From assembly GCA_005883765.1 (NCBI GenBank), contig VBAQ01000156.1:1-38858 (forward strand): a DNA stretch of 38,858 bases, in the 5' to 3' direction. The translations under genes and the position numbers were made by a program. Positions 26,051 through 28,280 of the stretch are shown here, one piece after another. Positions within the stretch are counted from its first letter, which is position 1. Each line of letters begins with the position of its first letter. Source of the DNA: Bacteroidota bacterium. Its GTDB lineage: Bacteria; Bacteroidota; Bacteroidia; Chitinophagales; Chitinophagaceae. Below the pieces are notes generated by a model. That model was not told where the DNA came from. It saw only the letters and a program-made list of their open reading frames with translations, and made no database searches.

Positions 26051-27040
26051 TTGAAACAGTTCATTTCCGTTCATGATGTATCAGATATAGACGCTTTAGT
26101 TAGCAAGGCGCTCGATTACAAGTCTGATCCGTTAAAGGATAAAAAGCTTGGTGAGAATAAACGGATCGGTTGCCTGTTTCTGAATCCGAGCATGCGCACG
26201 AGGCTGAGTACGCAGATTGCTGCGCAGAATTTGGGAATGGATGTTATTGTTTTTAATGTGGGCAGCGAAGGCTGGGCTTTGGAATTCGAAGACGAGGCCA
26301 TCATGAGCGGCAAAACGGCAGAGCATGTAAAAGATGCCGCCCCGATCATGGGAAAATACTTCGACATTCTTGCCATTCGAACTTTTCCTTCTCTCAAAAA
26401 TCGTGAAGATGATTACAGTGAATTATTCATAAAACAATTTGTGAAATATGCCGGCATCCCGGTTGTAAGCCTGGAAAGTGCAACGCTTCATCCGTTGCAA
26501 AGCCTGACCGATGTAATGACAATTACCGAGGAAATACAAAAGTCAAAACCCGATAGTTATCGGGATCGTGTCAAAAATCAAAGACCAAAAATCGTTCTTA
26601 CATGGGCGCCCCATGTGAAACCCTTGCCGCAATGTGTGGCTAATAGTTTTGCTCAATGGATTAATACATGGGGTAAAGCTGACTTTGTGATCACACATCC
26701 GGAAGATTATGAACTAAACAGGGAATTTACAAATGGTGCCACGATCACACACAACCAGGATGAAGCTCTGAAGGCTGCAGATTTCGTTTATGTAAAGAAC
26801 TGGAGCACTTATACCGACTATGGAAAAATTTATTGTAACGACCCAGGGTGGATGCTCACCAATAGCAAATTAAAACTTACAAATAGTGCCAAGGTGATGC
26901 ATTGCCTGCCTGTTCGAAGAAATGTGGAATTGAGTGATGAGATCCTCGATAATTCGAATAGCCTGGTAACCGAAGAAGCAGCAAACAGGGTTTGGGCGGC
27001 ACAAGCCGTTTTATCAGAAATATTGGCCCCCCTCCCCTAA
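26051..27040 (+). CDS. argF': N-succinyl/N-acetylornithine carbamoyltransferase
   Basis: This enzyme carbamoylates an N-acylornithine, the Bacteroidota variant of the arginine pathway. FLNPSMRTRLSTQ is the carbamoyl-phosphate site, HPLQSLTDVMTI and MHCLPVRRN are ornithine-site signatures, and the C-terminus is like that of Bacteroides SOTCase. The start is TTG 26051 (KQFISVHDV). Residue 90 (GKTAEH) is Ala where Bacteroides SOTCase has Pro and Xanthomonas AOTCase has Glu, which argues for succinylornithine. An insertion of about eleven residues (KPDSYRDRVKN) before RPKIVLTWAPH is encoded around a palindrome (26549-26564). The last residues APLP and the stop codon are encoded by the left inverted repeat of the DUF559 unit. 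Confidence 0.9.
   Translation: MKQFISVHDVSDIDALVSKALDYKSDPLKDKKLGENKRIGCLFLNPSMRTRLSTQIAAQNLGMDVIVFNVGSEGWALEFEDEAIMSGKTAEHVKDAAPIMGKYFDILAIRTFPSLKNREDDYSELFIKQFVKYAGIPVVSLESATLHPLQSLTDVMTITEEIQKSKPDSYRDRVKNQRPKIVLTWAPHVKPLPQCVANSFAQWINTWGKADFVITHPEDYELNREFTNGATITHNQDEALKAADFVYVKNWSTYTDYGKIYCNDPGWMLTNSKLKLTNSAKVMHCLPVRRNVELSDEILDNSNSLVTEEAANRVWAAQAVLSEILAPLP
26549..26564. repeat. CCCGATA-type palindrome read in frame inside argF'
   Basis: CCCGATAGTTATCGGG has a perfect 7-bp stem and 2-base centre. It is translated as PDSYR (residues 167-171), in the region that is about eleven residues longer than in Bacteroides SOTCase. GTCAAAA occurs on both sides (26542-26548 and 26570-26576). Confidence 0.75.
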
Positions 27041-27047
27041 AGGGGTG
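27026..27047 (+). repeat. Left inverted repeat of the DUF559 unit
   Basis: This 22-bp repeat (core TCCCCTAAAGGGG) matches the reverse complement of 27449-27470 at 20 of 22 positions. It is itself a hairpin (CCCCT/AGGGG). It supplies the last codons and the TAA stop of argF' and the GTG at 27045 that opens the following reading frame. Confidence 0.8.
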
Positions 27048-27077
27048 TTTTCGAAGATTCATTATATTGATAGCGTC

Positions 27078-28280
27078 ATGAAGGAAAATATGTTCTATGG
27101 AGCCAGCCCAATAATTTTCAAAAAAGCTGAGGAGCTTCGAAAGAAAATGACCTCTGCTGAAAAAATTATTTGGCAGCATATTCATATCAATGAATGGAAA
27201 CTAAAATTCAGAAGACAACATCCTGTTTCCAATTTCATTGTAGACTTTTATTGCCATGCTCTAAAACTTGTTATTGAAATAGACGGCGACATTCATGATG
27301 TTGAAGAAGTTAAAAAAAATGATGTTGCCAGAGAAAGGACGCTTTTTTCTCTTGGCTTAAAAGTTCTTAGGTTTAGTAATGAAGTGGTTTATAAAAACAG
27401 TAAAGAAGTTTTAAAAAAAATTGATGAAACCATCAGGGTGTTGCGAGGCTCCCCTTTAGGGGATGGGGGCAGAGAAACACTTTATGTAATTAAGATCGGG
27501 GGAAATATTGTTGATGATGAAATAAAACTTTCTTCATTTTTAAAAGATTTTGCCAACATTCAAGCTCCACCACCCGGAAGGGGCGACGTAAAGAAAATAT
27601 TGGTACATGGCGGAGGCAGATTGGCCACACAGCTTGCCGAAAAATTAGGTGTCGAACAAAAGCTGGTTGATGGCAGAAGAATTACGGATGCTGAAACTCT
27701 GAAAATAGTAACGATGGTATATGCCGGGTATATCAATAAGAATATCGTTGCGCAGCTCCAGGCCAATCATTGCAACGCAATTGGATTGTGTGGTGCGGAC
27801 GGCGATCTGATCCTGGCCCACAAAAGAAATCACCCCGTAATTGATTACGGATTTGTCGGTGACGTAGATGCTGTTAATGTGAACCTGTTAACGACACTTT
27901 TAAATCAGAACTTGTCAGTTGTGGTCGCTTCGCTCACCCACAACCAGGAGGGACAGTTACTGAATACAAATGCAGATACTGTTGCGCAGGAAATTGCCAA
28001 CGCTATGAGCCCTGATTTTGATGTCCATTTGATTTACTCATTTGAAAAAAGCGGTGTATTGCTTGATGCGAATAATGATAAGACAGTGATCGCGACAATC
28101 GATCCATCTTTGTATCAACAACTCAGATCAAAAGAAAAAATATTTGCCGGCATGATACCGAAACTGGACAACGCTTTTGCGGCATTGAACAATGGAGTAA
28201 AAAAAGTAACCATAGGCAAGGCGGAACAATTAAAAGATCTGATCAGTGGCCGGTCCGGAACAAATATTGTCAATGGGTAA
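27078..28280 (+). CDS. argB: DUF559 (Vsr-like fold) domain fused in frame to acetylglutamate kinase
   Basis: One frame encodes two proteins. In numbering from GTG 27045, residues 12-130 are a DUF559 domain: LRKKMTSAEKIIW, RRQHP, the candidate catalytic D67 (DFYC), E78 and H84 (IEIDGDIH), and GLKVLRF. Residues ~144-411 are N-acetyl(succinyl)glutamate kinase: VIKIGGNIVDD, ILVHGGGRLATQLAEKLG, NTNADTVAQEIA and a C-terminal ILE-type IPKLDNAFAALNNGVKKV. The linker RGSPLGDGGRE is the right inverted repeat. The ATG at 27078 is the likeliest start (GTG 27045 is possible). No ATG lies near the native ArgB start, so ArgB depends on this fusion or on an internal GTG/TTG at 27438/27441. An extra QAPPPGRGDV interrupts ArgB at residues 173-182. 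Confidence 0.9.
   Translation: MKENMFYGASPIIFKKAEELRKKMTSAEKIIWQHIHINEWKLKFRRQHPVSNFIVDFYCHALKLVIEIDGDIHDVEEVKKNDVARERTLFSLGLKVLRFSNEVVYKNSKEVLKKIDETIRVLRGSPLGDGGRETLYVIKIGGNIVDDEIKLSSFLKDFANIQAPPPGRGDVKKILVHGGGRLATQLAEKLGVEQKLVDGRRITDAETLKIVTMVYAGYINKNIVAQLQANHCNAIGLCGADGDLILAHKRNHPVIDYGFVGDVDAVNVNLLTTLLNQNLSVVVASLTHNQEGQLLNTNADTVAQEIANAMSPDFDVHLIYSFEKSGVLLDANNDKTVIATIDPSLYQQLRSKEKIFAGMIPKLDNAFAALNNGVKKVTIGKAEQLKDLISGRSGTNIVNG
27449..27470 (-). repeat. Right inverted repeat of the DUF559 unit, in the fusion linker
   Basis: This is the reverse-complement partner of 27026-27047 (20 of 22 positions), with CCCCT-TT-AGGGG at its core. It is translated within RGSPLGDGGRE between the DUF559 and kinase domains. 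Confidence 0.8.
27564..27587. repeat. Degenerate C-rich/G-rich repeat inside the argB part
   Basis: GCTCCACCACCCGGAAGGGG has the layout of the other C-rich palindromes but with mismatches. It encodes the APPPGRGD segment that has no counterpart in typical ArgB between the first helix and ILVHGGG. Called mainly from the protein insertion. Confidence 0.4.

Follow-up and report, generated by a model that had tools for sequence, protein, structure and literature searches.

The argF'-argB junction of the window

The window is a stretch of 38,858 nucleotides from a bacterium of the Chitinophagaceae, phylum Bacteroidota (contig VBAQ01000156.1 of assembly GCA_005883765.1). Between its argF' and argB genes lies a unit (27026-27470) in which a Vsr-like nuclease domain of the DUF559 family (PF04480) is bordered by two inverted palindromes similar to repetitive extragenic palindromes (REPs). 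The features of the junction are the following:

26051 to 27040, plus strand: argF' (ornithine/acetylornithine transcarbamylase family; PF02729/PF00185); start assigned mechanically, last codons and TAA within the left repeat
27026 to 27047, no strand: left REP-like palindrome, with foot GCCCCCC and hairpin CCCCTAAAGGGG
27078 to 27434, plus strand: DUF559 Vsr-like nuclease domain with probable, conserved ATG start (PF04480; AlphaFold model with pLDDT 85)
27449 to 27470, no strand: right REP-like palindrome, which repeats the left one in inverted orientation and is translated as the linker GSPLGDGG
27471 to 28280, plus strand: ArgB (acetylglutamate kinase), in frame with DUF559 and lacking an ATG of its own (reading frame and profile matches)
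27078 to 28280, plus strand: the entire DUF559-ArgB fusion frame, 400 residues (reading frame and profile matches)
27567 to 27583, no strand: palindrome relic CCACCACCCGGAAGGGG, translated in frame in the ArgB loop region, which has 31 residues against the usual 23

A sequence-only reading of the window had described 22-bp repeats around a complete-looking DUF559 domain, and this description is confirmed. Of the 22 positions in the repeats, 20 are complementary (95% over a 20-nt core), and PF04480 fills the frame between them (E 1.4e-30, profile positions 5-108 of 109), for which no other profile match was obtained at E 1e-3 apart from a sub-cut-off one to PF18741. As had also been read from the letters, the argF' frame is closed by a TAA inside the left repeat (27038-27040), while a frame open from GTG 27045 runs uninterrupted through the right repeat into ArgB, up to the stop ending at 28280. 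The ArgB part scores 195.5 bits against TIGR00761 (cut-off 151.3); the ATG that the earlier reading had described as lacking at its start is indeed absent, and GTG 27438 and TTG 27441 are in frame. The peptide beginning at ATG 27078, MKENM(F/Y)YGA, is common to both other copies found at ArgB junctions (in genomes G103 and G083), so that the fusion more probably begins at this ATG than at GTG 27045. A profile search of the window genome returned one ArgB match only; together with the missing ATG, this indicates that arginine synthesis probably relies on the DUF559-ArgB frame or on an internal GTG/TTG start. The same genome has further in-frame DUF559 copies in IcmF (contig C152) and LeuRS (contig C369). 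Two other contigs (C263 and C293) end within DUF559 genes, as might be expected if the assembly had stopped at copies that are nearly identical.

Empty and occupied junctions

Comparison with relatives shows that the window unit is an insertion at an operon junction, because argF' runs straight into argB in a genome of the same genus (G001), with 4 bases from the end of the former to the start of the latter. The junction is likewise empty in G004, a congener of the occupied G103, and the earlier proposal of an insertion between the two genes is thereby borne out. Among 42 inspected junctions (the 30 best ArgB matches and 12 more, partly chosen for long or split frames), the unit is present at three, in the window genome (G000), G103 and G083. 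ArgB matches occur in 96 of the 117 genomes of the surveyed family, taken to be Chitinophagaceae (the family genomes hereafter), and frames of at least 390 residues are confined to these three and G108, at whose junction no DUF559 was found. In G103 the ATG of ArgB is retained directly behind the right repeat, at the position where the window has AGA. In a quick argF' tree of 42 rows the three occupied hosts require three changes, and their grouping as a clade is rejected (approximately unbiased test, p 0.007); the nucleases of the three copies form a clade (SH-aLRT 97). As seen by eye, a lone palindrome stands at the junction in G086 and G014. A short inverted pair without nuclease, with weak arms (15 nt at 80%, 12 nt at 83%) that are 57-58 bases apart, is found there in G078 and G038.

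Host proteins of the in-frame copies

PF04480 is present in 60 of the 117 family genomes (125 matches in total), and a sample of 395 genomes across the phylum Bacteroidota has it in 222. In the family, 87 of the 125 matches were examined in context, the omitted 38 being mostly weak or partial and in some cases strong. Copies were counted as fused when their frame extended by 90 residues or more beyond DUF559 on one side, and 48 are fused by this length rule, with a recognised host for 44. LeuRS has received 19 insertions, 14 at one site and five at a second, with one protein bearing both; the other hosts are MetH (5), CinA (4), AroC, ArgB and IcmF (3 each), adenine deaminase (2), and MetRS, a DEXH helicase, IspG, ThrB and HisA (1 each). 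The four copies without a firm host comprise two unscanned frames, one with no host match and one with a sub-cut-off match. Names were given by NCBIfam scans of 1-2 members per group and otherwise via BLAST grouping or junction motifs. The earlier reading had called a repeat that ends one gene and links the next an unusual design. The window repeats do supply both the stop and the linker, but the arrangement is not unique: with 48 of the 87 copies in longer frames, in-frame residence recurs in at least a dozen host proteins. Frames of two comparison families are short among the matches listed, reaching at most 287 residues for the REP-associated tyrosine transposases (RAYTs) and 180 for PDDEXK_3, a nuclease family that belongs to the superfamily of DUF559.

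The LeuRS site that is occupied in the window genome corresponds to the interval between residues 238 and 243 of the Thermus enzyme (1h3n), in the editing domain. A single LeuRS frame of 1315 residues in G014 (L113) has two DUF559 units at two sites. The incomplete genome G013 has two LeuRS fragments on separate contigs, each with DUF559 at the same site (L140, L159), which may reflect either mixing of genomes in the bin or the presence of a second LeuRS.

A search of named genomes gave at least 571 relatives, and among the best 80 a similar rule identified 26 as fused: 16 to HisF, five to ArgB, one each to ThrB and HisA, and three to others. The HisF fusions, one named by an NCBIfam scan and the remaining ones by eye from the junction, were found in Pedobacter and Mucilaginibacter, and none of the 16 retains the start Met of HisF. 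Named isolates with a fusion include Flavisolibacter nicotianae X7X (ArgB), Segetibacter aerophilus NBRC 106135 (HisA) and Pedobacter suwonensis DSM 18130 (HisF). An intein identity of the units was considered and rejected: the NCBIfam library includes intein models, and none of them matched at E 1e-3 in the 18 fused proteins that were scanned.

Ends of the units and dispersed palindromes

Other DUF559 frames with repeat borders, to which the sequence-only reading had pointed as a check, do exist. With 200-base flanks and a threshold set at the 99th percentile of 510 control spacings, inverted left and right ends were detected in 52 of 85 copies (two of the 87 were left out for lack of full flanks), as compared with 63 of 1009 mismatched element pairs. 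The end sequences vary among elements (CCTCACCCC..CCCCTCTCC.., GCCCCCTCTAAATCTCCCCC.., GCCCCCATCCCCTAAAGGGG) yet match within one element. In particular, end similarity between genomes rises with nuclease similarity (r 0.47, 1307 pairs, 0 of 2000 permutations), also when pairs sharing a host gene are removed (r 0.36, 1181 pairs, 0 of 2000 permutations), and different units within one genome have a median end similarity of 0.25 (19 pairs) versus 0.53 for nearest nuclease neighbours elsewhere. Since end similarity tracks the nuclease while units of one genome differ, ends and nuclease travel together, the ends following the nuclease lineage and not the genome.

Palindromes also occur away from the units. 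The pattern CCCCTTTAGGGGNNNGGGG is found 16 times in the window genome versus 0 for the reversed control, and this count, taken with the inverted ends of 52 of 85 copies, shows that the repeats are not due to chance. Across the family, the palindrome CCCCTTYAGGGG with its foot is present in 42 of 117 genomes, and a control pattern of opposite polarity in 14; in the window genome the latter gives 0 matches versus 18+24 (overlaps included). Among 132 distinct places listed in 13 genomes there are 17 neighbours within 600 bases, 15 of which have their feet outward like the window unit (13 of 15 without the two known units, p 9e-7). The earlier notion of a transposase-free element that keeps the host frame thus stands with regard to the empty sites and the other repeat-bordered DUF559 frames, and needs amending with regard to the repeats, which are not unit ends only and belong to a wider REP-like family with solo and short paired forms.

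The number of palindromes is associated with DUF559. Indeed, strong DUF559 matches are present in 27 of 29 genomes with at least 10 palindrome matches versus 22 of 88 others (p 4.8e-11), and in 32 of 42 genomes with at least one match versus 17 of 75 others (p 2e-8), kinship being uncontrolled in both comparisons. ArgB bears a further trace of the palindromes: its loop, usually of 23 residues (41 loci compared, three of which yielded no loop), is lengthened by a palindrome-coded peptide in five of eight genomes with at least 20 matches versus 0 of 30 others (p 1.1e-4; p 9e-4 if G014, which has the least distinct palindrome, is omitted). The window genome is among the five. No palindrome was found in the long ArgB loops of G029 and G107.

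Fold, active site and lineages of the nuclease

The AlphaFold model of the domain, built from 38 sequences, has pLDDT 85 and pTM 0.79. In structure comparison this model aligns with NGO0050 (3hrl) at Z 13.5, with the homing endonuclease I-Bth0305I at Z 11.2 (rmsd 2.8 over 91 residues) and with E. coli Vsr at Z 9.8, and the homing-type nuclease fold suspected in the sequence-only reading agrees with it. With Foldseek, 3hrl and I-Bth0305I alone pass E 0.001 (Vsr has E 0.085), and a sequence profile run against the PDB matches 3hrl only. Eight columns (E, W, R, Q, D, E, D, H) show no variation across the 84 full-length domains; in the window they include E27159, D27243, E27276, D27282 and H27294 (codon starts), with W, R and Q as neighbours. 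Because 47 of these domains are fused and 37 are not, the putative active site is constrained in fused copies too.

The 52 units with inverted ends differ in how they are read. The frame continues through the right end in 32, no in-frame ATG is present between the left end and the domain in 18, and 15 lack both an internal ATG and an internal stop, remaining open through both ends. Roughly three designs can be distinguished, namely units with their own start and stop, units with their own start and no stop, such as that of the window, and units with neither, which would depend on the host for both.

In the nuclease tree (86 rows, one row with an inner stop being left out), the site requires 12 changes versus 18-23 in 300 shuffles, while the genome requires 50 versus 47-55, so that there is no genome signal. 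The fused and stand-alone states need 8 changes versus 19-34 in shuffles, so that residence in genes is a habit of lineages.

Interpretation and proposed mechanism

The best reading of 27026-27470 is that it represents one copy of a mobile unit, in which inverted REP-like palindromes, each made of a C-rich foot and a short hairpin, flank a DUF559 nuclease. In wider terms, we consider it likely that the Bacteroidota harbour a Vsr-like nuclease element with REP borders, which spreads selfishly and is maintained as an in-frame domain without splicing. The sequences themselves show that the unit is an insertion, that its relatives repeatedly reside in frame, at other junctions and inside proteins, that ends and nuclease are linked, that lineages follow sites across hosts, and that the active site is constrained. 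In the mechanism that we propose, the nuclease would nick or cut empty target or palindrome DNA, and repair or replication would then copy the unit in, much as happens during homing or RAYT/REP movement; solo palindromes would be non-autonomous derivatives of the unit. Survival in essential genes may depend on a left repeat that can end the upstream gene and on a frame and right repeat that stay open, with the host enzyme presumably being produced as an unspliced fusion. Strict homing, with one nuclease for one site, was rejected on account of the several lineages at one LeuRS site and was relaxed to a site-preferring behaviour. A behaviour between homing and transposition fits best, because related nucleases revisit sites, yet that LeuRS site has several lineages and one nuclease group spans ArgB, ThrB and HisA.

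A number of points weigh against this reading. Mobility driven by the nuclease is inferred, and neither a target-site duplication nor a near-identical pair of occupied and empty sites was found among the junctions and copies compared. The linkage of ends and nuclease speaks for joint travel, not for an action of the nuclease on the ends; 33 of 85 copies fall below the inverted-end threshold; and inverted flanks, of other sequences, also surround 22 of 27 PDDEXK_3 loci (30 taken, three skipped for length) and 13 of 28 RAYT loci, so inverted ends alone are not peculiar to DUF559. As to the palindromes, two genomes with at least 10 matches have no strong DUF559, and the per-genome counts include overlapping matches of one place, such that the thresholds of 10 and 20 refer to matches, not places. 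Phylogenetic pairs on supported branches (4 usable) give on average about 2 for the link between DUF559 and palindromes and 0.1 against it, too few for significance. Unrelated mitoribosomal chains of similar fold tie with Vsr in the structure comparison (Z 9.5), the AlphaFold model of the entire fusion is weak (pLDDT 66), and a single LeuRS site holds several nuclease lineages.

Among the other explanations, a RAYT (Y1 tyrosine) transposase or some other enzyme could move REP units in trans, leaving DUF559 as a passenger. REPs are classically tied to RAYTs (PMC3733652), Y1_Tnp is present in 89 of 117 family genomes, 13 of 28 RAYT loci have inverted flanks, and Y1_Tnp is weakly associated with the presence of at least one palindrome match (p 0.025). 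However, the association is lost at 10 or more matches (p 0.21, as against 4.8e-11 for DUF559), seven strong-DUF559 genomes have no Y1_Tnp match, and mean palindrome matches in strong-DUF559 genomes are similar with and without Y1_Tnp (23.4 and 26.6). Moreover, 7 of the 13 inverted RAYT flanks have a GTAGG-type hairpin and, by eye, 0 have the C-foot and CCCCTNAAGGGG of the window unit. Palindrome number thus seems to follow DUF559 and not RAYT transposases, kinship being uncontrolled, and a RAYT as the mover, disfavoured by these tests, is unlikely. Old fusions that were inherited vertically and lost many times, with no present mobility, would also place related nucleases at the same site in several genera. 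We regard them as improbable, given that the three occupied ArgB hosts are not a clade, that both occupied genera with a second member searched have an empty congener (G000/G001 and G103/G004), and that the active-site columns remain invariant.

The intact frame and the conserved domain could also be taken to indicate that ArgB and the other enzymes acquired DUF559 for a useful role in regulation or DNA binding. This is very unlikely, since the host enzymes are unrelated to each other, most frames for ArgB and LeuRS in the family have the length without DUF559, and the linkers are translated from palindromes that occur alone as well. The window genome is fragmented into 403 contigs, and an artefact of assembly or binning might be suspected; with the arrangement present in the isolates Flavisolibacter nicotianae X7X, Segetibacter aerophilus NBRC 106135 and Pedobacter suwonensis DSM 18130, the probability of such an artefact is negligible.

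Relation to known systems

The DUF559 unit shares properties with REPtrons, Rickettsia palindromic elements (RPEs) and Vsr-like homing endonucleases. REPtrons consist of a small gene between REP-like palindromes, with solo copies dispersed, and their repeats can supply a stop codon or lie in genes (PMC3733652). Dispersed oriented palindromes are likewise found in the window genome (16 versus 0 for the control), but the defining Y1_Tnp gene between palindromes is absent from the window unit, whose gene encodes a Vsr-like DUF559 nuclease in place of a Y1 transposase, and DUF559 units differ further in keeping host frames open. Inspection of both ends of the window unit by eye revealed no GTAG or CGTC tag beside the hairpin. 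RAYTs of Bacteroidetes have been described (PMC6006769). RPEs are in-frame palindromic insertions in many unrelated genes (PMC10969869), and DUF559 units also insert in frame into unrelated protein genes; RPEs, however, are of about 150 bp and belong to another phylum, while the units described here carry a nuclease domain. The stand-alone DUF559 protein VsrA of Caulobacter has the same domain, and in vivo a methyltransferase mutant requires it for its SOS response, but it is a separate gene and is not called mobile in the accessible part of PMC12907096.

The likeness to homing endonucleases includes the modelled PD-(D/E)XK Vsr-type fold with an apparently intact putative active site, as in I-Bth0305I, and nuclease lineages that are tied to sites and spread across hosts, with LeuRS as a partial exception. 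Unlike I-Bth0305I, DUF559 stays in the host protein and has palindromic ends, and neither intron nor intein was found. Vsr-like homing endonucleases go by the name EDxHD and are kin to the nucleases of 'fractured genes' that were reportedly described by Dassa in 2009. A prior description of a DUF559-palindrome element was not found in the open-access literature; subscription papers lay largely outside that search, and an earlier notice is possible.

If the proposed reading is true, a family of short palindromes in Bacteroidota would be moved by a Vsr-like nuclease, an enzyme type new to the spread of REPs, and the nuclease gene would persist in essential genes as a tolerated protein domain that is neither intron nor intein. 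This would account for the frequent DUF559 in LeuRS, MetH, HisF and ArgB of Bacteroidota and would provide a route for domains and linkers to enter proteins; type strains that carry units make it directly testable. More tentatively, and with slightly less than an even chance in our judgement, the units may constitute a class of mobile elements of Bacteroidota that lives in proteins without splicing, in which a Vsr-like nuclease mobilises and co-diverges with its own REP palindromes, as RAYTs do, and some lineages have lost start and stop and are translated only as domains of essential enzymes such as LeuRS.

PDDEXK_3 loci and RAYT flanks

The PDDEXK_3 loci are perhaps a second family of nuclease-repeat elements, and many of their flanks have CACAGAG-like repeats. 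In G010 the argF'-argB junction (L032:870-1491) contains a PDDEXK_3 gene (PF13366, E 1.4e-38) between inverted repeats of a different type, a different PD-(D/E)XK nuclease at the very junction that DUF559 units use. That PDDEXK_3 lies between inverted repeats of its own hints at a broader group of repeat elements driven by nucleases. The RAYT genes of the family also lie often between inverted palindromes, about half of which are of the GTAGG type, unlike the ends of DUF559 units.

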